A DNA stretch of 64,000 bases from Candidatus Bathyarchaeota archaeon. Its GTDB lineage: Archaea > Thermoproteota > Bathyarchaeia > TCS64. Location: the NCBI GenBank assembly GCA_026014815.1, contig JAOZHP010000041.1, forward strand, positions 1-64,000, read 5' to 3'. Under the pieces are notes generated by a model. That model did not search any database and was not told where the DNA came from. It saw nothing but the letters and a program-made list of their open reading frames with translations. Made by a program: the position numbers and the translations under genes. Below are positions 17,222 through 31,289 of this stretch, in pieces; positions within the stretch are counted from its first letter, which is position 1, and each line of letters begins with the position of its first letter.

Positions 17222-19009
17222 CTATTTTCTGCGGAGAACCCTTCCCGGAGTACTTGGCTTGATCTTGCCTTTCTCAACAGCGACTATGCCATTCACGAGA
17301 ACATACTCAATACCTTCAGGCTTTCTCCTCGGATGCAATGGATCACCTGTTACTTTCAGCTTATCAAGATCTATAAGGACTATGTCTGCGTACCCTCCAT
17401 CGGTCAACACTCCTCGTCCTTCAATGTTGTGCCTTCTGGCTGCTTGAACAGAAGTCTTGATGACTGCCTCCTCCAAAGTGAAAACAGGGTCACGTTTAAC
17501 ATATCTGATATAAAACTCTGGTAACGCGCTGTACGTGCTCATCCAGTACACGTACCAAGGCGCGACATCAGAGACCCATTTATAGTCATCAGCCAACGTA
17601 TCGAGACCCACAGCGCTCGCGGGATGCTCAAAAAATACTTTATGATACAAGGCGTTAGGGTCACCACCGAAGGCTAGACCACATTTGGCTCTTGGGTCCT
17701 CCACTATGAGGTCAAGCCATGTATCGAAGCCATCTGCTTCCCGTTTCATGGATATCTCTGCAATTGTCTTTCCGTTGTTCTCAGGATCTTTGTGCTCAAG
17801 CACTGTGATGTTATTTGCCCAATTAGGGTTCGTGTTGGGGTTGTAAGAGACCCGGATAAACCATTTTCCTCTCATAATAGCATCCTTAAGCTCCTCCCTA
17901 CAGTCAGGCACGCTGAGCCACTCCGCGAATTTTTCCAATGAGGTTTGCTCACGAAGCCAGGGTAGGAACTGCGAGGACAAGTACTCCCATCGGCTGAATG
18001 GTTTGGGGCTACTCTGAGGTATTACGTCGAAGCTAATGTCGAGTCCCTCCTTTAGAGCCTCGTTTATGACATCTATGGTCGCCTTCCTATTCGCCTCCTC
18101 CAGTACAGCCGGGGCATTCTCAGGTGAGAGATACCACCCTGTATAGAGGTGGGCGATGTTCATCTTGACGCCTGTTTCCCGGCATAAATCGATGACCTCT
18201 TTAATTGCCTTGATCTTGTCAGGGAGCTTGTGCCCAGCCTTAATGTCCCTTCTGCGTCCAGTTCTCCTGCTATGGGGAACGAAGATGCCATCGTACTCCT
18301 TCATGATTGATGTATGCTCCACCAGCTCCGCTCGATCAGCAAAGACATCTGGATCATAATCAAGCCCAACGCTCATTCCAAAGCACCCATCTTTCATGGC
18401 TTGATGGATGTGTTCAGCCATCTCGTCTCTCTCAGACTTGCTGGCAGCGCGTTCATAGTCTTTACCAAGAACGAGGCTTCTCACATTTCTATGCCCCAGC
18501 AAAGGCGCATAGTTGCTTGATATTCCCTTTTCCTCGACAGTTTTAAAGAACTCCCCCATTGTGCGCCATGTGAGCCTGTACCCAACGCGTTTTTCCAGCA
18601 TATCGCTTACTTGTCCACGTGGGAACATGTCGCTCTTGGGATAATACTTGAAAGGTGTTAAGTCACGCATGTACTCGCTGCCGAAGCTGATACCATCTAG
18701 ATGAATTAGGTCGCCAATGGGTGCAGGCGAGGACCCGCAATGTCCACCTATAAATGTGGTGATTCCCTGCAGCAGATAGCTCTCGCAACCAGGGAACTGT
18801 AAAAGCCACAGGTCGTGATGGCTGTGGCTATCGATGAACCCTGGTAACGCCACCAAGCCTTTGGCGTCTATCGTCTTCTCGGCATCCGCTTTGAAATCGC
18901 CTAAGGCTGTGATCTTATCTCCTTTTACTCCAATAGAGCCCATGTATGCTAGCTTGCCCGTACCTTCAACAATTTTAACATTTGTAATTTGTAAATCCAA
19001 ATCAATCAT
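17222..19009 (-). CDS. N-acyl-D-amino-acid deacylase family amidohydrolase
   Basis: 595 residues. N-terminal LQITNVKIVEGTGKLAYMGS gives the small beta sandwich, then the metal motif PGFIDSHSHHDLW (HxH), GGHCGSSPAP (the GNCG-like metal Cys loop of D-aminoacylases), NIAHLYTGWY and GFGGDP-like LAFGGDPNAL, and the C-terminal AARRHNIEGRGVLTDGGYAD then IVLIDLDKL. It removes acyl groups from N-acyl-D-amino acids or related dipeptides. The adjacent creatininase fragments point the same way, and tldD/tldE are divergent across 90 bases. Confidence 0.85.
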   Translation of the reverse strand: MIDLDLQITNVKIVEGTGKLAYMGSIGVKGDKITALGDFKADAEKTIDAKGLVALPGFIDSHSHHDLWLLQFPGCESYLLQGITTFIGGHCGSSPAPIGDLIHLDGISFGSEYMRDLTPFKYYPKSDMFPRGQVSDMLEKRVGYRLTWRTMGEFFKTVEEKGISSNYAPLLGHRNVRSLVLGKDYERAASKSERDEMAEHIHQAMKDGCFGMSVGLDYDPDVFADRAELVEHTSIMKEYDGIFVPHSRRTGRRRDIKAGHKLPDKIKAIKEVIDLCRETGVKMNIAHLYTGWYLSPENAPAVLEEANRKATIDVINEALKEGLDISFDVIPQSSPKPFSRWEYLSSQFLPWLREQTSLEKFAEWLSVPDCREELKDAIMRGKWFIRVSYNPNTNPNWANNITVLEHKDPENNGKTIAEISMKREADGFDTWLDLIVEDPRAKCGLAFGGDPNALYHKVFFEHPASAVGLDTLADDYKWVSDVAPWYVYWMSTYSALPEFYIRYVKRDPVFTLEEAVIKTSVQAARRHNIEGRGVLTDGGYADIVLIDLDKLKVTGDPLHPRRKPEGIEYVLVNGIVAVEKGKIKPSTPGRVLRRK

Positions 19010-19098: not shown

Positions 19099-20514
19099 GT
19101 GTATATGATGAAAGATATAATGGAATACTGTCTGGATTACGCGCAGATACTTGGAGCCAGCTACGTCGATGTACGTGGCGAGCATTACTATAATGAATTT
19201 ATCAGCGTCGTTAACGCAGGCGTTGACAAGTCTTTCACCGTCCGCAAGAACGGTGTAGGTGTTAGGGCCCTTGTGGATGGCGCTTGGGGTTTTTCATCAC
19301 TCAATCATCCTACAAAGGAATCAGTCAAAACTACCGTCGAGAACGCTGTCTCACAGGCCAAAATGATAAGCAGAAGCATTAAAGAGCCGGTCACGTTGGC
19401 GCCCGTCAAAGTCTATAAAGACAAAGTCGCTACACCTCGGAAACTTGATGTCGAGGACGTGGCGTTCGATGATAAGATCAAGAACACACTCGAGTGGGAG
19501 CAGGGGTTCAAAGTATCTGATGAGGTCAAGGAGACCATGCTCAACTACACAGCGATTAAGTTTGATAGAACATTCATGAGTAGCGAGGGCGCTGACATCG
19601 AATTTAACAACAGTGTTCTCTGGCTCGAGATGAAGACCAGCGCCACTCGGGGTGGAAAGAGAGGGGCTTTCGCCCTTTATCATGGTGGCTCAGGTGGATA
19701 TGATTTCCTAACAGAAGGTGACCCATCAGAGTTAACTATGGATGTTGGTAACAAGGCAGTCTCCCTCATCGACGCTGAGTATGCTCCTTCAATGAAGGAC
19801 ACCACTCTCGTATTCGATCCTTACTATCAAGCAATTCTCACCCACGAGATCACTGGTCACCCCAGCGAGGCTGACAGGGTGCTGGGCAGGGAGGCAGCAT
19901 CCGCTGGCAGCGCTTGGTGGGCTGGCAAGATAGGTGAACATATCGGATCGGAGTACCTCAATATATACGATGACCCTACTTTACCTGGGACATGTGGCTA
20001 TTTCCCCTACGACGATGAGGGAGTGAAAGCCAAGACCAAGGTATTGGCTAAGGAGGGCATTCTCATCGACCATATGCATAGCAGAGAGACGGCGTCAATC
20101 TTCAACGTGGAACCAAATGCAGGGATGAGGGCAATGACCTTCGAGTATGTGCCCCTCATCAGAATGAGCAACACGTTCATCGGTGGAGGTGACTGGAAGC
20201 CAGAGGAGATCATCGAGGATACCAAGAAAGGAGTCTATGTCTCAACTCGGAAGGATAACTCCATCGACGACATGCGATACAACTGGACTATCTCGGCTCA
20301 GGAGGGCTGGATGATCGAGGACGGCGAGCTAACTACTCATCTCAAGGACGTGACAGTCAACGGTATAGCGCCCAAGCTTTTCACAAGCATTGACGCCGTG
20401 GGGAATGATCTAAGTATCAAGCCCCTCATAGGCTGTGGTAAGGGTATGCAGATGCTATACACTGGAAACGGTGGGCCCACAATGAGGGGTGTAGCGGATA
20501 TAGTGGGAGGTTAA
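19099..20514 (+). CDS. tldD: TldD/PmbA family metalloprotease, TldD type
   Basis: 471 residues. The zinc-site motif HEITGHPSEADRVLG (HExxxH, around residue 250) and the downstream Cys in TLPGTCGYFPYDDEGV-like context mark the catalytic TldD subunit. With TldE it forms a heterodimeric protease that cuts unfolded or modified peptides. Three possible starts (GTG 19099, ATG 19105, ATG 19108) lie within 10 bases of the predicted transcription start. tldE follows after 4 bases, and the pair fits the peptide-degradation theme. Confidence 0.9.
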   Translation: MYMMKDIMEYCLDYAQILGASYVDVRGEHYYNEFISVVNAGVDKSFTVRKNGVGVRALVDGAWGFSSLNHPTKESVKTTVENAVSQAKMISRSIKEPVTLAPVKVYKDKVATPRKLDVEDVAFDDKIKNTLEWEQGFKVSDEVKETMLNYTAIKFDRTFMSSEGADIEFNNSVLWLEMKTSATRGGKRGAFALYHGGSGGYDFLTEGDPSELTMDVGNKAVSLIDAEYAPSMKDTTLVFDPYYQAILTHEITGHPSEADRVLGREAASAGSAWWAGKIGEHIGSEYLNIYDDPTLPGTCGYFPYDDEGVKAKTKVLAKEGILIDHMHSRETASIFNVEPNAGMRAMTFEYVPLIRMSNTFIGGGDWKPEEIIEDTKKGVYVSTRKDNSIDDMRYNWTISAQEGWMIEDGELTTHLKDVTVNGIAPKLFTSIDAVGNDLSIKPLIGCGKGMQMLYTGNGGPTMRGVADIVGG

Positions 20515-20518
20515 AAAG

Positions 20519-21904
20519 GTGAACACAATGAGAAACATGATCGATAAAGTCCTCAGCAAAGGTGAGAGGCTCGGTATGGATGACATCGAGGTATATTGTG
20601 CTAAAAACTTGACAACCAAGATTAGGATAGGAAGCAACGCCGTGACCTCGGCTTTCACCATCGTGGACGAGGGCATCGGTGTAAGAGTGATCAAGGACGG
20701 TGGGTTGGGGTTCGCAGCTGTCTCACTCACCTCGGAAGATGAGCTCGATAAGGTTTTAGACGACGCTGTAACTGCAGCCAAGGCAAGGAAACTTGGGTTC
20801 AGCTACGAGTTTCCTTCACTCGAGAAATCAACCGAGGTACTAGGAACATACGACAGTAAGCTAGTATCGCTCCCAGAGGAGGATAAGGTGGGTTTGGCGA
20901 ATAGAATGCTTGAGTCCTCTATCGCTTTTGACCCGCGGGTAGTTGACAATGCGGGAGATGTGACCTTTATCGAATATGAGACAGTTATTGCCAACGCCAG
21001 CGGCCAGCAGGTCTCAGATCGTGGAACAAAACTATCGGCAGCTTTGACAGCGACAGCCAAAGCAGATGGAGTTACAGGAGAGGATGCCGGGAGGCGTCAG
21101 TGTCGTTCACTCAACGGGTTCAACCCAGAGGCGGTTGGGAGGGAAGCAGCTGAATCAGCCGTAGAGCGGTTAAAGGCCAGAAAACTTGAGGCTGGCACAT
21201 ATGATTTGATAGTTGATCCCCCGACTGTAACAGAAATGTTTTACTGGCTCTTACGTTACGCCAACCCCGCATACGCAGACACCTACTATCCTACGTTAAA
21301 GAATAAGGTTGGAACCAAGATACTTAACGAGACAGTAACAATATACGATGACCCTACTTACCCTGGTGGCTATGATTCTGCCTCAATCGACGATGAAGGC
21401 GTCAAGGCGTCTAGAACAACCATATTCGAGAATGGGATCTTTAAAAATATGATCTATGACTCAGTCTCGGCTGCACGCAAGTGCGTCAACGGGACAGGAA
21501 ACGCCTTGAGGACTGGTCTATGGTTCGTCATCAACTTCTCATTATTCCCGGGGAAGAACTACAACTATGAGCCTTATCCTGAATTCAGCAACATGGTCAT
21601 GAAGCTGGGTGACTGGAGCAGGGATGAGATCATTGAGGACACCAAGAAAGGAGTCATCTCTCAGTGTTTCCACTACTCGAGGGTATCCCAGCACATCAGA
21701 GGAGACTTTACATCAATCCTTGGCAGGTGGAAGCTTTACACCGTTGAAAACGGAGAGGTTACTGGGACTACAGTAAAGTGCAGGCTTAATGATAATATCT
21801 TCAGGATGTTCCAAGGAGTAGACGCTGTCGGTAATAACCCTCTTGTTGATTTTGGTGTGACCCCAACTGTGCGGGTGAAAGACGCGAACATAACCGCGTT
21901 CTAA
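20519..21904 (+). CDS. tldE: TldD/PmbA family protein, TldE (PmbA) type
   Basis: Partner of TldD. It has the family N-terminal GIGVRVIKDGGLGFAAVS and C-terminal GDWSRDEIIEDTKKG and DAVGNNPLVDFG blocks but no HExxxH, as expected of the non-catalytic subunit. The frame opens at GTG 20519. However, AAGGTG there looks like the ribosome-binding site of ATG 20528, which I prefer. Co-transcribed with tldD. Confidence 0.88.
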   Translation: MNTMRNMIDKVLSKGERLGMDDIEVYCAKNLTTKIRIGSNAVTSAFTIVDEGIGVRVIKDGGLGFAAVSLTSEDELDKVLDDAVTAAKARKLGFSYEFPSLEKSTEVLGTYDSKLVSLPEEDKVGLANRMLESSIAFDPRVVDNAGDVTFIEYETVIANASGQQVSDRGTKLSAALTATAKADGVTGEDAGRRQCRSLNGFNPEAVGREAAESAVERLKARKLEAGTYDLIVDPPTVTEMFYWLLRYANPAYADTYYPTLKNKVGTKILNETVTIYDDPTYPGGYDSASIDDEGVKASRTTIFENGIFKNMIYDSVSAARKCVNGTGNALRTGLWFVINFSLFPGKNYNYEPYPEFSNMVMKLGDWSRDEIIEDTKKGVISQCFHYSRVSQHIRGDFTSILGRWKLYTVENGEVTGTTVKCRLNDNIFRMFQGVDAVGNNPLVDFGVTPTVRVKDANITAF

Positions 21905-21907
21905 ACC

Positions 21908-23065
21908 TTAACTTCTTTTTCTCCAGTACTGTACAACCTTGTAGAGTGTAAAGATGACCCAATAAACCATGGTGTATAGACATAGTAGCATCTCGAACTC
22001 GAATATCCAGAGCGGGCTCTGACCCCTGAAAACTATCTTGTTGACATATACAACGTTATAGATTATTCTGAATAGCTCGTAACCAGTGTAGATGCTTCCC
22101 ATGATGGCAGTCAAGTGTAGAACTGCGCTTAGGGTTTTGAATCGATCATCCTTCTCGATGGTTGCGTCTACCTTGTGAGGTGGCTCCTTAAGGGCCGTCA
22201 TCAGCGACATCAATATGGGGGTCACCGTCAGAATGAAGGCGAGACCGAACCATGATGGTAGCTCACGCTTAGTGATCTCCACGGCTCTCTCACCGGGCTC
22301 AGTCTTATAGATCATACTTGTGCTGTAATCCAGAGACCAGAGGCTTCCATTGTCCCAAGCGAGGTCGCTGGGATAGTAACCAGAGCTGTAATAATATGAA
22401 ATAACCGAACCGTTCAATGGGTTCAGTTTGAACACATAGGAGGCGCTGATATCCGCGACCCATATGTTTTCACCATCCCAAGCAACTCCTGAGGGGTTAT
22501 ACCCTGGTGAAGGCATGCTGAACTGTCTAACAACAGCGCCACTCACAGGGTCAAGGTAGAATACCGCATGTGCATCAAAGTCGCAGAGTACAAGGTTCTT
22601 GCCGTCCCACGCGAGTCCAGTAGGGGAAATGCCGGGTACTTTAACTCTTGAGACAATCTCATTGGTTTCAGTGTCAATCCGGTAGATGTACCGGGTATCG
22701 AAATCTGTGACCCATAGATATTCTCCATCCCATGTCATCCCCCACGGATCATCTATATCCAGATCAAGGCTTCTGAGGGGCATACCAGTCGAAGACTCGA
22801 TCATAAGGACTGCACCTTCGTTAGCCGAGGAAACCCAAAGAGATGCGCCGTCAATGGCTAACCCAGTGGGCTTGCTAACCGGTGATGTATACTGTGTCGT
22901 GACAGGCATGACGAGATGGGACATCTCCCTGCTGGTCTCAAAATCCCCGTACTCGAAGGCAAGATAGACTCCAATATAGATCAGGATAACCACTAGCAGG
23001 ATCAGACTCCTTCTCCTGAAGGCTCCCCACCCGTGGAAAAACCAGCGCATCACTAAATCCAACAC
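21908..23065 (-). CDS. membrane-anchored beta-propeller protein (last gene of dpp operon)
   Basis: 385 residues: one N-terminal membrane segment (RSLILLVVILIYIGVYLAF), then about five repeats of the kind GLAWDGKNLVLCDFD / GVAWDGENIWVADIS / DLAWDNGSLWSLDYS, typical of NHL/YVTN-like propellers, then three C-terminal membrane segments. GTG 23065 overlaps the dppC TAG by one base (TAGTG), so it is coupled to the transporter. An extracytoplasmic sensor or docking role for the Dpp system is inference. I know of no standard Dpp component of this type. Confidence 0.75.
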   Translation of the reverse strand: MLDLVMRWFFHGWGAFRRRSLILLVVILIYIGVYLAFEYGDFETSREMSHLVMPVTTQYTSPVSKPTGLAIDGASLWVSSANEGAVLMIESSTGMPLRSLDLDIDDPWGMTWDGEYLWVTDFDTRYIYRIDTETNEIVSRVKVPGISPTGLAWDGKNLVLCDFDAHAVFYLDPVSGAVVRQFSMPSPGYNPSGVAWDGENIWVADISASYVFKLNPLNGSVISYYYSSGYYPSDLAWDNGSLWSLDYSTSMIYKTEPGERAVEITKRELPSWFGLAFILTVTPILMSLMTALKEPPHKVDATIEKDDRFKTLSAVLHLTAIMGSIYTGYELFRIIYNVVYVNKIVFRGQSPLWIFEFEMLLCLYTMVYWVIFTLYKVVQYWRKRS

Positions 23066-23934
23066 TACATTCTTACATCTAAAGCATCACGTAGACCATC
23101 GCCGAGCAGGTTGAAGCCAAGAGTCGTAAACAGTATTGCTATACCGGGAAAAGTGGCGATCCACCAAGCCCTCCTGATGACAAGATGCCCTCTACTAAGC
23201 ATAGTACCCCATGTAATAGCCGTGGGGTCGCCGAGACCGAGGAAACTGAGGCTAGACTCCGTTATTATGGCTCCGGCCAGCCTGAGTGTCATCATGACGG
23301 TTATGGGTGCCATGATGTTAGGCAGGATCTCCCTGAAGAGTATGTCGAAGCTGCTCGCGCCCATGGAATTTGCTGCCTCTATGTAGTTTCGCTCCTTGAT
23401 GGATAGAACTTCGCTACGTACAACTCTGGCCATCTGAGGCCAGCTGATGAGCCCAATGGTCACCATTATAATGGGCAACCCTCTCACCTTGAAGATCGAA
23501 ACCATAACAATGAGTAGGAATAAGCTAGGCACAGTCATCACGATCTCAGTGATTCTCATCAATATGTTATCGATGGGTCCACCGGCGTAACCCGAGATAG
23601 CGCCTACTGTGATCCCTATCACTGTGAGTATGAGCACTGAAACGCATCCAACTTGCAGGCTCGACCTTGACCCATAGATTATCCTGCTTAACATGTCTCT
23701 ACCCAACTCATCTGTGCCAAGCAGATGGTCTGAGTTCGGTGGCATATAGACATCGCCATAGTTCATCTTTTTCGGGTCGTATGGCGAAATGAAGGGAGCG
23801 AAAATTGCTGTAAATATTATGATTAATACAATTGACGCCCCGAATATTACTGTGGGGTTTCTTTTGAATCTCTTCCACGCTTTCATCGTGAAGCTAACGC
23901 CTTTCCTCGGTGCTACAGTGGTTTTTTCAGTCAA
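23065..23934 (-). CDS. dppC: dipeptide/oligopeptide ABC transporter permease DppC
   Basis: 289 residues with an N-terminal cytosolic segment, the N-terminal OppC-type YDPKKMNYGDVYMPPNSDHL then LGTDELGRDMLSRI signature, about six membrane segments, and the EAA coupling loop NYIEAANSMGASSFDILFRE then ILPNIMAPI that docks onto the ATPases. It follows dppB by 12 bases. Confidence 0.93.
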   Translation of the reverse strand: MTEKTTVAPRKGVSFTMKAWKRFKRNPTVIFGASIVLIIIFTAIFAPFISPYDPKKMNYGDVYMPPNSDHLLGTDELGRDMLSRIIYGSRSSLQVGCVSVLILTVIGITVGAISGYAGGPIDNILMRITEIVMTVPSLFLLIVMVSIFKVRGLPIIMVTIGLISWPQMARVVRSEVLSIKERNYIEAANSMGASSFDILFREILPNIMAPITVMMTLRLAGAIITESSLSFLGLGDPTAITWGTMLSRGHLVIRRAWWIATFPGIAILFTTLGFNLLGDGLRDALDVRM

Positions 23935-23946
23935 GCTTCATATCTC

Positions 23947-24927
23947 CTATTCGAACCTGATCCTCGGATCGAGGAACCCATAAGTCAGGTCGGTGATTAG
24001 ATTGGTCACCACAACCATCAAGGCCACCATCATAGTGACAGCCATGATAGCCGGGTAGTCTCGGTTGAAGGTACTCTGTACTACAAATCGACCCATACCA
24101 GGCCAAGCGAAGACTGTCTCTGTGACTGTCGCCCCAGCGAGCAGGAATCCCATTGACATTCCAACTACGGTAACGACTGGTAGTAACGCGTTTCTCAACG
24201 CGTGTTTGTAGACTACTATGTTCTCCTTGAGCCCCTTGGCTCTGGCGGTCGTTATATAGTCTTGATTCAACACTTCTAGCATGCTTGAACGTACGAGCCG
24301 CGTTATGAGTGCGGCGCTCGATAATCCCAGAACTGTCACAGGTAGGATCATGTGCATGAACTCATCCAAAATCGCCGCCATTGAATAATCATAAACAGCG
24401 CCTATAGTTCTAGCGCCGAACACTGGTAAGAGATCTAATTTCACCGAGAAAAGGAACATCAACATGAGTCCCGTCCAGAATGATGGCATTGAGACCCCAA
24501 AAAGTGAAGCAAAACGAGCTGTATTATCGATGAGAGTATCCTGTTTCACGGCAGAGATTATACCTAAGGGCACAGCGATTAACACAGCAAGTATCTGGGC
24601 ACTGAACATGAGCTTGAGTGTGTTACCAGCATAGATCTGTAACAAGTCTATTATCGGGACCTCTTTAATGTATGATGTTCCTAGGTCACCTGTAATTATG
24701 TTCTTCAGCCAGATGAGATACTGTTCCCAGATGGGTTTGTCAAGCCCGAGTCTTTTCTCCATCTCAAGAAGATACTCGGGTGAGATGTCTCCTCGCAATG
24801 CGAGGCTAAATTTCAGTGGCCCTCCTGGGGCTAGATGAATTATCGTGAATGTTAGGATAGATATTCCAATTAACGTTGGGATTGAACTTATGACTCTTCG
24901 AATAATATAATTTCTTAAACCGCCCAT
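23947..24927 (-). CDS. dppB: dipeptide/oligopeptide ABC transporter permease DppB
   Basis: 326 residues, six membrane segments. Family hallmarks: N-terminal IIRRVISSIPTLIGISILTF, the periplasm-facing LGLDKPIWEQYLIWLKN, FGVSMPSFWTGLMLMFLFSV, and the EAA loop DYITTARAKGLKENIVVYKH. Forms the channel with DppC. It lies about 85 bases after the binding-protein gene, whose C-terminal region ends just before a T-rich stretch, so partial termination may raise binding-protein levels. Confidence 0.93.
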   Translation of the reverse strand: MGGLRNYIIRRVISSIPTLIGISILTFTIIHLAPGGPLKFSLALRGDISPEYLLEMEKRLGLDKPIWEQYLIWLKNIITGDLGTSYIKEVPIIDLLQIYAGNTLKLMFSAQILAVLIAVPLGIISAVKQDTLIDNTARFASLFGVSMPSFWTGLMLMFLFSVKLDLLPVFGARTIGAVYDYSMAAILDEFMHMILPVTVLGLSSAALITRLVRSSMLEVLNQDYITTARAKGLKENIVVYKHALRNALLPVVTVVGMSMGFLLAGATVTETVFAWPGMGRFVVQSTFNRDYPAIMAVTMMVALMVVVTNLITDLTYGFLDPRIRFE

Positions 24928-25011: not shown

Positions 25012-26751
25012 TTAAGGTTTTTTCAGGAATGATATAGCTAAAGCACCTATTATCAGACCAATAACTGCTCCGCCTACGGCGGGAAGCAAGTTACTAGACA
25101 CAGGTATCGTCGGCTCTGGCTCAAGATACTCGTATTTGAATCCAGCTAGTTCCATGTAGGCTTTCGCCTGCTCAAGGTCATACGATGGCACGTTGGCAGT
25201 CGAGTCGTATGCCCAAGTCAGCGGGTGAATGAAGCTTGTACACTCATCACCAAGACCGGCGAGAGTGTTTGCCACGATATCCGCTCTGGGAATCGTAGCA
25301 GAGATAGCTTTACGCACATACTTGTTACCTAGCATCGGGTGGTTCAGGTTGAACATCAGGTGGACTGCTCCAGGGTTGATACGAAGCACATACTTCAAGT
25401 CCTCGTTTGCTTCGATCTGAGGCACCTCGTTTCCGAGAGAGTAGTATGTATCCAGCACATGGACATCTCCTTTCTCAAGTGCCGCCATAGCCGTCGCTGC
25501 GTCAGGGATGTTGACGAAGTACAAGGTATCTAGAGGAGCCCTACCACGGTAATACTCAGTGTTCACCTCTAGTTTCACATATTCCTCGGGCTGCCACTCA
25601 ACCATCTTGAATGGTCCAGTTCCTATACATAGCTGTGTGTTCAATGGGTGTGACTTCCAGTCCATGTGTGGTACATCAGCCATGATGTGGTCTGGCCAGA
25701 TCTCTTGTGTGAATATCTTGGACCATGCAGCTGCAGAGGGGATCTTCAATATTACCTCAAAGGTCTTATCATCGATCGCTCTGTAGCTATCCACAAGTTC
25801 ATCGAAGTCATAGTATGAGGACATTGCTGTATCGATGTCCATAATGGCATCGAAGGTCGTTATGATGTCCTGTGTAGTAAATGGTTCATTATCATGCCAG
25901 AGAACTCCGTCATGTAGAGTGAATGTCCAGACTAGACCATCATCCGAAACTGTCCAAGACTCAGCTAACTCTCCAACAGGGTTGAAGTTACTATCGCTGT
26001 CCATCAAAGCCTCCCAGACTGTATGGCCTACGGCTCTTAGAGTTGTTCCAGCACCCGCGAATGTTGGATTCAGACTTGGTAGGCTACCTGGCTGAGCATA
26101 TTGAACGGTTCCTCCCTCCTGATCGCTTAAGCTCCAGGTGTAAGCACCTAGACCATAACATCCCAAAACAGTGTCGAAGCCCTCCACGTCAGATCTCATG
26201 ACCCAAGGGTCCTTTAGATATGCTATAGTTGCTGAGGGAACTTCTTCAGCGAGAATGTGCAATGCATCACTATATAGAGTTTTTCTATCTTCCATATCAG
26301 ATAGCACTGCCGCCTCGTCAAGAATAGCGTCGAACTGTCCATTGTAGAATGCACCCTTGTTCCATCCTGGGTGCTGGTTCTTAGAGTGGAACAGCGTTCC
26401 CATGTTGTCAGGGTCTAGCTCACCTGAGTCACCGAACTGAACCAGCCAAGTGTCGAAGCCATCATCAACCGCTAAGGCTTGATCTGAGCCGGCTTTGTTC
26501 AGCCGATCCATGAAAACACCGAAGCCTACTTGCTCTATGCTGGCTTTTATTCCAATCTGTCCCAGTTCGTTCTGTATCATTTCCGCCATCATACGGTGAG
26601 ACTCAAATCCCGAGATGACTAGAATAGAGAATTCAAAGAAATATTTCTCATCCTCAGCCCCAGCGATAGGTACCGCCAGCATGCTTGTTAGTATTATCGA
26701 GATCATTAGTATAGTTATCAATGTTAGTTTTTTTTGTGACATAATTATCAC
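25012..26751 (-). CDS. circularly permuted SBP_bac_5 (DppA/OppA-type) peptide-binding protein
   Basis: 579 residues: signal/anchor (about 6-30), then the segment that is normally C-terminal in DppA (SHRMMAEMIQNELGQIGIKA, then DDGFDTWLVQFGDSGELDPD, then RKTLYSDALHILAEEVPSAT, about 50-200). From about 212 comes the normal N terminus (GGTVQYAQPGSLPSLNP, ELAESWTVSDDGLVWTFTLH, CIGTGPFKMVEW, then DLEQAKAYMELAGF near 540). The order of the two parts is swapped relative to E. coli DppA; the joint falls where DppA reads KALLKEAG..FSIDL. A C-terminal membrane helix (LLPAVGGAVIGLIIGALAIS) follows, so the protein may be held at both ends. GTG 26751 or ATG 26742 may be the start. First gene of the minus-strand operon. 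Confidence 0.9.
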   Translation of the reverse strand: MIIMSQKKLTLITILMISIILTSMLAVPIAGAEDEKYFFEFSILVISGFESHRMMAEMIQNELGQIGIKASIEQVGFGVFMDRLNKAGSDQALAVDDGFDTWLVQFGDSGELDPDNMGTLFHSKNQHPGWNKGAFYNGQFDAILDEAAVLSDMEDRKTLYSDALHILAEEVPSATIAYLKDPWVMRSDVEGFDTVLGCYGLGAYTWSLSDQEGGTVQYAQPGSLPSLNPTFAGAGTTLRAVGHTVWEALMDSDSNFNPVGELAESWTVSDDGLVWTFTLHDGVLWHDNEPFTTQDIITTFDAIMDIDTAMSSYYDFDELVDSYRAIDDKTFEVILKIPSAAAWSKIFTQEIWPDHIMADVPHMDWKSHPLNTQLCIGTGPFKMVEWQPEEYVKLEVNTEYYRGRAPLDTLYFVNIPDAATAMAALEKGDVHVLDTYYSLGNEVPQIEANEDLKYVLRINPGAVHLMFNLNHPMLGNKYVRKAISATIPRADIVANTLAGLGDECTSFIHPLTWAYDSTANVPSYDLEQAKAYMELAGFKYEYLEPEPTIPVSSNLLPAVGGAVIGLIIGALAISFLKKP

Positions 26752-26824: not shown

Positions 26825-26858
26825 GGTACAAGGAGTATATTCATCTCGTACTAACATA

Positions 26859-27867
26859 ATGAGCGTGACTAAAGATATCTGATACCTTAGTTAATATCAA
26901 GGGACTTAAAACATACTTCAACACAGAGGAGGGCGTAGTTCAGGCAGTAGATGACATCAACCTCGAAATCAAGAAAGGAGAGGTTCTTGGGCTGGTTGGT
27001 GAATCTGGTTGCGGAAAAAGCACCGTTGCGCTCTCACTCCTGAGGCTCATTCGAAACCCCGGTGAGATTGCCGGGGGGGAAATACTCTTCGATGGAACAG
27101 ACATCCTGACACTAAACGATGATGAGATCAGGAAAATCCGGGGCGCGAAGATAGCCATGATTTTTCAGGACCCAATGTCCTCTTTGAACCCAGTCTTTTC
27201 TATCGGGTTCCAGATAGAAGAGGCGGTTCTTCTTCATCAAAAGATCAAGGACGATGAGAAAGCTATGGCGAAAGTTATTGATATTCTAGGCAAAGTTAGG
27301 ATACCGGATCCAACTAAAAGACTTGATCACTTCCCACATGAATACAGCGGCGGCATGAGGCAAAGGGTAATGATTGCCATGGCGCTCTCATGTAACCCAC
27401 GGTTGCTTATTGCGGATGAACCTACGACCTCACTTGATGTTACGATCCAAGCACAAATATTGGACCTAATGAAGGATCTACAGGAGGAAACTGGCAGTTC
27501 AATCCTCTTGATCACGCATGACCTCGGTATAGTAGCTGAGATGTCAGATAGAGTAGCTGTTATGTATGCAGGTAAGATCGTGGAGTGTGCTGAGGTAACG
27601 ACTGTGTTCAAGAAACCCGTGCACCCTTACACCAAGCTGCTAATCGGGGCTGTGCCTCGATTGGACATCAAACAAGACTCGCTTGAAACCATTCCAGGGG
27701 AAGTCCCATCTCTAATCAATCTAGCTGATCAATGCCGTTTCGCCCCAAGGTGTAGCTACGCAGATAAGATATGTCACACGATGGATCCACCCGAAGTTGA
27801 GGTAGACTCTGGGCACGTGGTTCAGTGTCATTTCGCTGAAAAATTCAGGAGGGAGCTTGATGCCTGA
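26859..27867 (+). CDS. dppD: dipeptide ABC transporter ATPase DppD, with N-terminal frameshift
   Basis: From 26869 one frame encodes a complete ATPase: [20 protein letters not shown], Walker [11 protein letters not shown]-loop [12 protein letters not shown], signature [15 protein letters not shown], Walker [13 protein letters not shown], and the C-terminal Cys-rich [14 protein letters not shown] seen in Dpp/Opp ATPases. That frame has no ATG, GTG or TTG before 27157, inside the Q-loop. ATG 26859 starts MSVTKDI in another frame and meets TGA after seven codons. Skipping the T of ATC-TGA-T would join MSVTKDI to DTLVNIKG, the expected N terminus. Either +1 frameshifting on the stop codon or an extra base in the assembly. 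Confidence 0.85.
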
Positions 27868-28849
27868 AATAATATTGAAGATAGAGAATCTAAAAAAATA
27901 CTTCCCACTCCGTGGAGGTATATTCTCCAAACAGATTGCCTCAGTTCGAGCAGTAGATGATGTTTCATTCGACGTCAAGGAGGGAGAAACATTCGGGTTA
28001 GTAGGGGAGAGTGGATGTGGTAAAACCACTCTAGGTCGCTGTGTCCTGTTGCTAACCCAGCCTACAGACGGTAAGATCTTTTTTGAGGGTAGAGATCTCA
28101 TAAAGATGAAGAAAAAGGAACTCAGGACGCTCAGGCAGAGGACATCAATGATCTTCCAAGATCCCTACTCTTCGCTGAACCCGAGGATGACAGTTGGAGA
28201 TATAATCGGGAAGCCCCTTGAGATTCATAAGCTCGCAAAGGGGGAGGAGAAAACACGTAAGGTCATCGAACTCATGAAAATGGTCGGGCTCTCTGAGGAG
28301 CATATCTACAGATATCCCCACGAGTTCAGTGGGGGTCAAAAGCAGCGCATTGGTATCGCCAGAGCGCTAGCAGTGAACCCTAAACTTATTGTGGCTGACG
28401 AGGCGGTCGCTGCTCTCGATGTATCAGTTCGTGCGGGAATTCTTAATCTGATGAAGGAATTGCAAAAGGAGCTAGGGCTCACTTATATCTTCATCTCACA
28501 TGACCTCAGCGTAGTCAAACATATCTGTGACAAGGTGGCTGTTATGTATCTCGGCGAGATAGTCGAGATAGCTGAATCAGAGGAGATCTTTAATCACCCG
28601 CTTCACCCATACACGAAAGCGTTGATCTCTGCGATCCCCATTCCTGACCCCACGGTGAAGAAGAAGCGGATAATACTGGAAGGAGACCCTGGTACACCCA
28701 TCGATCCACCGCCAGGGTGTAGATTCCATGAGAGGTGCAGCTTTGCGAATGAGCGATGCAAGACCGAGAAACCACCCCTCCAAGAGATGAAGACTGGTCA
28801 TTGGGTAGCATGTCACGAACTGCGACATAGCAGCATCATAGACCAATAA
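27860..28849 (+). CDS. dppF: dipeptide ABC transporter ATPase DppF
   Basis: 329 residues from ATG 27860, which has GGAGG about 7 bases upstream (27848-27853); a TTG three bases earlier is less likely. N-terminal [20 protein letters not shown], Walker [10 protein letters not shown], signature [15 protein letters not shown], Walker [13 protein letters not shown] (Ala replaces the usual Pro), and the C-terminal oligopeptide domain [14 protein letters not shown]. Overlaps dppD by 8 bases, so the two ATPases are co-translated and should form the DppDF heterodimer. Confidence 0.93.
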
Positions 28850-29169: not shown

Positions 29170-29670
29170 TTAAGCCTCATATTCGACCTTACCGTCGATG
29201 ATGACTGTCTCGGTCTTGATCATGATGTCCAAGGGGTCACAGTCAAGGATACGGATATCAGCGTCTTTACCAACCTCAAGGCTACCCACTCTATCATCAA
29301 CCCCCAGTATCTCCGCTGGGGTAATAGTGATAGCCTTGATTGCATCATCCTTCGGTACACCCTGCTTTACAGTCAAGGCAGCGCAGATGGGAAGGAATGA
29401 GATAGACTGCCCAAGGGCGTCTGTCTGGATCGCGAACTTGACACAAGCCTCGAATAGAGCCTTGGGGGTGTCGAAGCTTAGCTCCCTCATCTCCCACTTG
29501 ACCTTGCCCATGAGGCTAGGCCCCCAGATGGCAGGGACTCCCTTCTCGGCTATCCACTTTGCTTTCCTGTGACCCTCCGTGGCGTGCTCCCAGGTCACCT
29601 TGACTCCAAACTCCTCTGCTACCCTGATCGCTATCGCGATATCGTCTGCCCTGTGACTGTGAACCTTCAA
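29170..29670 (-). pseudogene. amidohydrolase (imidazolonepropionase-like), C-terminal fragment
   Basis: 166 residues beginning in the middle of the barrel: KVHSHRADDIAIAIRVAEEF, TWEHATEGHR, then GVPAIWGPSL and the C-terminal ITPAEILGVDDRVGSLEVGK. The first 200 or so residues, including the N-terminal HxH metal site, are missing. The gene is joined upstream to an unrelated membrane-protein remnant. Almost certainly non-functional; the parent family acts on cyclic amides or acyl-amino compounds. Confidence 0.7.
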
Positions 29671-29941: not shown

Positions 29942-30607
29942 TTATTTCTGAGCTATCTGATTCTTCAATCCAGTCTCGATCTGTGTGACGCTGAAAATTC
30001 GTACTACCGCTGAGGCCACGTCGTCAGCAAAGATCTCAAGAAGTCTTAGGTCTTTCTCTGAGAAGGCGTATGTCTCCTCGCTCTCGATGTCAATAACTCC
30101 TATTGTTTTTCCTTCTATGATTAAGGGGATGCCTAGCATCGATCTGAATGGTTTAGGGTTTTGGTTAACGGTGGGCTGAATAAAGTCAGGGTCTTTGTAA
30201 GTATCTTTTACTAGCTGGCTTTCTCCTGTGTTAACTGCTCGCACTCCCACACCTGGACCGTTCAGGGGCATTGGATTCGGGGGCATCAGTGGTCCTTCGC
30301 CCCAGTTATACATATACTCTAAATACTTCCCGTTCACAAAAGCAAGAGCTCCTCTTTTGAACCCTATCACTCCTCTTAATACTTGGAACAGATTATCTGC
30401 AACATCATCTAAGGATATCGCCTGAGCGAGTCTGGTACTGTGAACGTGAAGAGCCCCGATGCACTTGTCTCGATGACGAAGCTCTCTCTCCATCAACACG
30501 GAGTCACTAATATCATGAGAGGCATGGACAACCTCGACTATCCTCCCAGAGCTGTCCTTGATTGGGCTTGCATACTTCGACCCAGAAAGGTTTGTTAGAT
30601 GAATCAT
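29942..30607 (-). pseudogene. sensor protein, end of PAS plus GAF domain (frameshifted C-terminal part)
   Basis: 221 residues. The start (ASPIKDSSGRIVEVVHASHD) is the closing strand of a PAS domain. Residues about 50-205 form a GAF domain (LFQVLRGVIGFKRGALAFVN, GIPLIIEGKTIGVIDIESEE). No histidine-kinase domain follows. It continues the gene at 30513-31289 in another frame; the break is near 30575-30600. Whole-gene length would be about 440 residues. Confidence 0.7.
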
Positions 30608-31289
30608 AATGGGTGTGTATCTTCTTTACCGAATCCCCTGTCTCAAGCAACTCAAATATCGGGCATGAACAGTCCTCGTCTTCACAAGGTTTTTCCTTGC
30701 CATGAGTCACGCTGTAACAATGTTTGCCGATTAGCTCGTTTTCCTTCAGATTAAATCGCTGTAATGACGTTCTGTTCGCTGCTTTGATCTCAAAGGTAAA
30801 TGGATCAATGAGAAAAACTTCATCCAAAAGAGCATCAAATAAGGTCTTATAGAGATACGCGTTTTTCTCGACGCTGTTTATAGCCCATTTTCTCTCAACG
30901 GCTGACCTGATTCTTTTCGCTAACACTTGGAAATGGCTCGCTGAAACTTCTTTTCTTACGTAATCATTCACGCCTACCTTGAATGCTTCCTCGGCGACCT
31001 CCTCGCTTCCCTGCCCTGTGTACAGTATGAAAGGGATATCCGATTTTTCTCGAATCCTCTTTGCTAACTCGATTCCATTGAGTTTTGGCATTACGAAATC
31101 TGATACGATGCAGTCAAAGTTTCCCGTTCTTAGCCGCGTCTCAACTTCAAGTGGATCCTGTATGGTTTCAACATGCATACCTGAATCAATTTTTTCTAGA
31201 ACCCTCTTGGCGAACAAGAGAGTATCTGCATCGTCATCTATGTGTAAAATTCGTATCTGTTGCTCTGAGTACATGTGATGAGTGGCCAC
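30513..31289 (-). pseudogene. response-regulator receiver plus PAS (frameshifted N-terminal part)
   Basis: Receiver domain at about 12-130: RILHIDDDADTLLFAKRVLE, phospho-acceptor Asp in CIVSDFVMPKLNG, Thr in LYTGQGSEEV, Lys in DYVRKE. A PAS domain (TLFDALLDEVFLIDPFTFEI with CEDEDCSCP inside) starts at about 150 and is cut by a frameshift before its last strand. The receiver closely resembles that of the kinase at 36266 (GVxDYVRKE, QVLAKRIRS), so they are paralogues. Either recent decay or an indel error. Confidence 0.75.

Follow-up and report, generated by a model that had tools for sequence, protein, structure and literature searches.

Few families of nutrient-binding proteins are as large as SBP_bac_5. 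The protein described here resembles the members of SBP_bac_5 cluster C (DppA, OppA, AppA, NikA and GsiB) in its homology over the whole domain, in the BPD_transp_1 permeases and oligo_HPY ATPases of its operon and in its predicted two-lobe fold, but differs from them in chain order: the termini of canonical members lie in lobe 1, whereas permutation places them in lobe 2 in type A proteins and at the hinge in type B proteins. A permuted binding protein is known from another cluster. TpMglB-2 (Tp0684) of Treponema is a naturally circularly permuted glucose-binding protein, present in many species, for which the class "Type Ic / Cluster Bc" was proposed; its ligand binding is kept, and a link to tethering was suggested (PMC4990184). 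Natural circular permutation in the binding protein of an ABC importer is common to both cases, but TpMglB-2 has the Type I/cluster B fold, a sugar ligand and a different cut site, and nothing places the present protein in cluster B, SBP_bac_5 being the sole Pfam family found in it. No permuted SBP_bac_5 protein is recorded in Pfam, NCBIfam or the PDB, searched by profile and by fold, or in the open-access literature that was searched; the statement of the original prediction that no example had been described in this family agrees with these searches.

Chain order and predicted fold of the window protein

The window is the whole stretch of DNA that was analyzed, 64,000 nucleotides of contig JAOZHP010000041.1 of a Candidatus Bathyarchaeota archaeon. 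It contains an unbroken frame of 579 codons (25012..26751, minus strand) with a GTG start and an in-frame ATG alternative at 26742. The predicted protein matches SBP_bac_5 (PF00496) with an E-value of 4.7e-73 and a total of 246.9 bits against a cut-off of 32.4, in two stretches: profile positions 278-365 are found at 26377-26658 (approximately residues 32-125, E 1e-6), upstream of profile positions 2-280, which correspond to residues 258-540. A canonical profile of 507 positions, built from 11 canonical relatives, is matched first at positions 342-490 (82 bits) and then at positions 7-337 (215 bits), with residue numbers that refer to a 590-codon frame and are 11 above the 579-residue numbering, and the PDB relatives 1xoc, 5u4o and 4oet each align to the protein in two swapped stretches. 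The original prediction had claimed a circular permutation with the new ends in the loop after the AKxLLxxAG helix, and had proposed alignment to PF00496 as a check; both parts of the profile are matched on one chain in reversed order, and the order and the cut point are as it described. Because the two matches, which cover the SBP_bac_5 profile, are reversed and not collinear, the protein was filed as a permuted variant homologous to SBP_bac_5 (type A) rather than as a canonical member.

From its N terminus, the chain consists of a hydrophobic stretch that is probably a cleaved signal peptide (residues 1-31, 26659..26751, ending ..ILTSMLAVPIAGA|ED, with a 19-residue hydropathy of 2.5 and an AF2 helix at residues 6-24 followed by low confidence); the equivalent of the canonical C-terminal third (profile 342-490, 26173..26649, from profile and structure-sequence matches); a linker between the native C and N termini (26119..26172), which is the gap between the two profile matches and has AF2 pLDDT below 50 at residues 200-210; the equivalent of the canonical N-terminal two thirds (profile 7-337, 25135..26118, from PF00496, PDB and canonical-profile matches); and a membrane helix, the predicted anchor (residues 555-576, 25024..25089, LLPAVGGAVIGLIIGALAISFL followed by KKP, hydropathy 2.4), all on the minus strand. 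A full-length collinear binding-protein domain preceded by an unrelated domain could be suspected from the weaker match of the N-terminal piece (82 versus 215 bits), but that piece has matches of its own to the C-terminal part of PF00496 and, taken alone, to that of DppA-like structures (4oet, E 4.5e-9; E. coli DppA, 1dpp, E 4.4e-6). No match to the C-terminal third was found after residue 540, and the N-terminal two thirds are followed by only 39 residues, approximately 22 of them in the membrane helix, so the C-terminal third is absent from its normal place. An unrelated N-terminal domain is thus hardly credible.

For an AF2 model, the window protein was aligned with eight permuted relatives and with N-terminal fragments of canonical proteins; the C-terminal fragments of the latter, which were misaligned, were left out. 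With this shallow alignment of nine permuted rows, the model has a pLDDT of 80 and a pTM of 0.77. The best 50 Foldseek matches to it are all substrate-binding proteins, and all of the SBP_bac_5 type, mostly aligned over 340-370 columns of proteins of approximately 500 residues, in one stretch only and with target TM of at most 0.57; Foldseek respects sequence order, and partial coverage is expected if the chain order differs. The model is consistent with the earlier proposal that the two-lobe fold survives, and the permuted chain is predicted to keep the usual two lobes. It would do so with the native termini, both in lobe 1, joined by the linker and with the new ends placed in the lobe 2 loop that follows the AKxLLxxAG helix. 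Taking order, homology, predicted fold and gene context together, there is little doubt that the gene product is the binding protein of a peptide ABC importer of the Dpp/Opp type, its chain circularly permuted and predicted to keep the two-lobe fold.

Distribution of the permuted orders

The same canonical profile was used to classify 202 distinct domains, of which 101 are canonical, 64 are type A, 33 are type B and four are cut-off or gapped; none of the 101 canonical proteins shows reversed order. Type B is cut at canonical position ~203, which, going by the DppA fold, should lie near the crossover from lobe 1 to lobe 2. It occurs in many SBP_bac_5 proteins of the window phylum (approximately 25 of 300 genomes), and its order is lobe 2 first, then the native C terminus, with the native N-terminal region last. 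No third cut site was found among the 202 domains, a set for which type A and type B sequences served as queries and in which other cut sites could therefore have been missed. On one contig (L049, G025:C45), a type B gene (3669, plus strand) and a type A gene (8160, minus strand) lie a few kilobases apart. Elsewhere (L047, G055:C28), an ORF of approximately 2000 residues starts with a canonical SBP_bac_5 domain and continues for approximately 1500 further residues.

Type A comprises the 64 distinct genes of the profile classification plus nine from Bacillota and Chloroflexota, and its junction is conserved at residue level among relatives. In related archaea, where the original prediction had proposed to search for the same order, it is found in Bathyarchaeota (type A profile matches at E ≤1e-80, nearly all long and collinear, in 37 of 257 genomes of Candidatus Bathyarchaeota), in about a dozen genomes of Methanomethylicota and in haloarchaea, with complete plasmids from Halobaculum, Halalkalicoccus, Natrialba and Haladaptatus; a sample of Thermoplasmatota genomes contained no type A match at 1e-85 in a search without a positive control. 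Bacterial complete plasmids that carry type A come from Salipiger, Neorhizobium, Nitratireductor, Ketogulonicigenium vulgare, Roseomonas and Maritalea, and the Nitratireductor protein as a query matches 43 plasmid records over at least 80% of its length. In genome samples, profile-verified type A order was found in nine of 240 alphaproteobacteria, six of 200 Bacillota and one of 201 Chloroflexota. The cultured Acidisphaera sp. L21 has two type A proteins (G507:C135 and G507:C112; L231 and L242), one from each main type A group. The original prediction missed the second permutation type, this wide distribution and the repeated origin discussed below.

The window assembly has 159 contigs and a frame near the gene looks damaged, as might be expected if misassembly or misbinning in one metagenome-assembled genome had joined two separate genes. 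However, the window genome has a second type A gene (P0002, L003) on another contig, followed by a permease, with identical order; the order is also present in two single-contig genomes (G010 and G402) and on the complete plasmids of cultured Nitratireductor, Ketogulonicigenium, Neorhizobium, Halalkalicoccus and Natrialba; and an accidental join does not fit with a junction conserved residue by residue. For the permuted family as a whole, misassembly is already refuted, and as an account of the window gene its probability is very low.

Origins of the permutations

Trees were computed from sequences rotated to canonical order, with AU tests on 52 rows. Under the models used, type A is polyphyletic: its members fall in separate places, forcing all of type A into one clade costs 62.6 log-likelihood units (p=0.0026), and forcing type A and type B together into one clade costs 51.4 units (p=0.007). 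The N-terminal piece, unbroken in type A and canonical proteins alike, was used for a further tree to exclude an effect of rotation, and with Bacillota added, the AU test on 49 rows again rejected a single type A clade (p=1.3e-6). One Bacillota protein from a complete ORF (L259) is placed among canonical proteins on a branch with a value of 98. The two groups also differ in a G-x-L-x-Y-P segment that follows the helix at the C terminus in 12 of 17 proteins of the haloarchaeal and alphaproteobacterial group and in none of 44 of the window group.

These results bear on the possibility that one permutation event accounts for all of the permuted proteins, with type B derived later from type A and the polyphyly an artefact of the trees. 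The branches are deep, many of them at 25-30% identity, and two type A members (P0002 and G301) are placed close to type B, as such a history would allow; against it are the three AU rejections, the position of the Bacillota protein among canonical proteins and the uneven occurrence of the G-x-L-x-Y-P segment, and a single event is rather unlikely. Since a single origin of type A is rejected by the trees, this loop was probably opened on two or three occasions. The sequences are best read as the product of two or three independent type A events and a single type B event, a reading to be taken with caution given the long branches and 25-30% identity. The probable route is tandem duplication of the binding-protein gene, after which the N-terminal part of the first copy and the C-terminal part of the last would have been lost, and it would have been taken independently two or three times; no intermediate with an N-C-N-C chain was found among the 202 classified domains. 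A broader interpretation is offered tentatively, at somewhat short of an even chance: SBP_bac_5 may have two natural permutation hot spots, the first opened independently at least three times (in Bathyarchaeia, Methanomethylicia and Acidisphaera; in haloarchaea, alphaproteobacteria and Bacillota; and in an isolated Bacillota lineage) and the second one or more times, and attachment may have shifted away from lobe 1, to lobe 2 or the hinge, altering docking to the permease.

Membrane attachment, transporter partners and ligand

A C-terminal membrane helix, often preceded by a long linker, is present in 44 of 45 type A and 28 of 33 type B proteins of Thermoproteota, and in none of the 15 bacterial and four haloarchaeal type A proteins. 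All four haloarchaeal proteins have a lipobox-like motif at the N terminus; the bacterial chains end at or shortly past the AG[YF] helix and have ordinary Sec or Tat-like signals and no anchor. The original prediction suggested that the binding protein might be clamped to the membrane at two points, and the hydrophobic stretches at both ends in Thermoproteota would suit an adaptation of this kind. However, the N-terminal stretch of the window protein (..LAVPIAGA|ED..) looks cleavable and, judged from its sequence, is best read as a signal peptide, which makes a two-point clamp unlikely, and since bacterial and haloarchaeal type A proteins do without the C-terminal helix, with only a lipobox-like motif in the latter, anchoring cannot account for the permutation in general. 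Clamping at two points as the adaptive basis of the permutation is improbable. Instead, we infer that the C-terminal anchor of the Thermoproteota proteins departs from lobe 2 in type A and from the hinge in type B, and not from lobe 1, which would shift the point of attachment accordingly.

The window holds partner genes of the Dpp/Opp type. The genes of the DppC-type permease (23065..23934; PF00528 and PF12911 OppC_N) and the DppB-type permease (23947..24927; PF00528 and PF19300) lie with the binding-protein gene on the minus strand, and the DppD-type ATPase (26890..27867; PF00005 and oligo_HPY for 27157-27864, the upstream part read from the frame) and the DppF-type ATPase (27857..28849; PF00005 and oligo_HPY) diverge on the plus strand. 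Each of the 22 permuted genes for which the context spans at least 7 kb has homologs of the window DppB, DppC, DppD or DppF next to it. The 5' end of dppD has no clear in-frame start: at 26858-26890 the conserved frame offers none of the usual start codons, and ATG AGC GTG ACT AAA stands just upstream in another frame, so that a small frame break, by assembly error or real mutation, is suspected; a frameshift at the G run near 27075 was considered and rejected, as the frame is intact there. A predicted beta-propeller-like protein with membrane helices (21908-23065) belongs to the same operon and overlaps the end of dppC. Further along the window, an amidohydrolase C-terminal half (Amidohydro_1, 29170-29670) without its N-terminal half is probably a gene remnant or a frame break, and two overlapping ORFs in different frames (29942-31289) can be read as one receiver-PAS-GAF protein broken within its PAS domain.

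Beside the transporter are a TldD/PmbA metallopeptidase pair (19099..21904, plus strand; PF01523, PF19290 and PF19289 in both ORFs) and an Amidohydro_3 hydrolase (17222..19009, minus strand; PF07969, 3.7e-16) that is probably D-aminoacylase-like, a homolog near the permuted gene of Haladaptatus being recorded as D-aminoacylase. Operons of permuted relatives contain M28, M20 and M81 peptidases, TldD-related genes, hydantoinases and a D-aminoacylase. With these peptidase-type neighbors and the transporter partners, the ligand is likely to be peptide-like, and the peptidases, hydantoinases and D-aminoacylase point toward unusual peptides. E. coli DppA grips its dipeptide at both ends, through R383 at the carboxylate and through D436 (PMC12136057). 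The window protein has Ile at the position of R383 and an apparently conserved Asp at that of D436, so the pair that marks DppA dipeptide-binding proteins is incomplete; the protein scores far below the cut-off of NF043070, and no NCBIfam model reaches its cut-off on it. Because R383 is not kept, the ligand may not be a plain dipeptide, and strict dipeptide specificity is not to be assumed. The permuted chain, with its two predicted lobes, would close on the peptide-like ligand and hand it to the neighboring DppBC permease, driven by DppDF.

Public records name the permuted proteins "ABC transporter substrate-binding protein", and under so plain an annotation their split profile matches are misread as partial domains. 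The rearranged subfamily spans archaea and several bacterial phyla. Repeated cuts at one loop amount to a natural experiment, informative about the ways in which permutations arise and about whether docking depends on where the protein is attached, and because related hosts hold both chain orders, with and without anchors, a direct test is possible.
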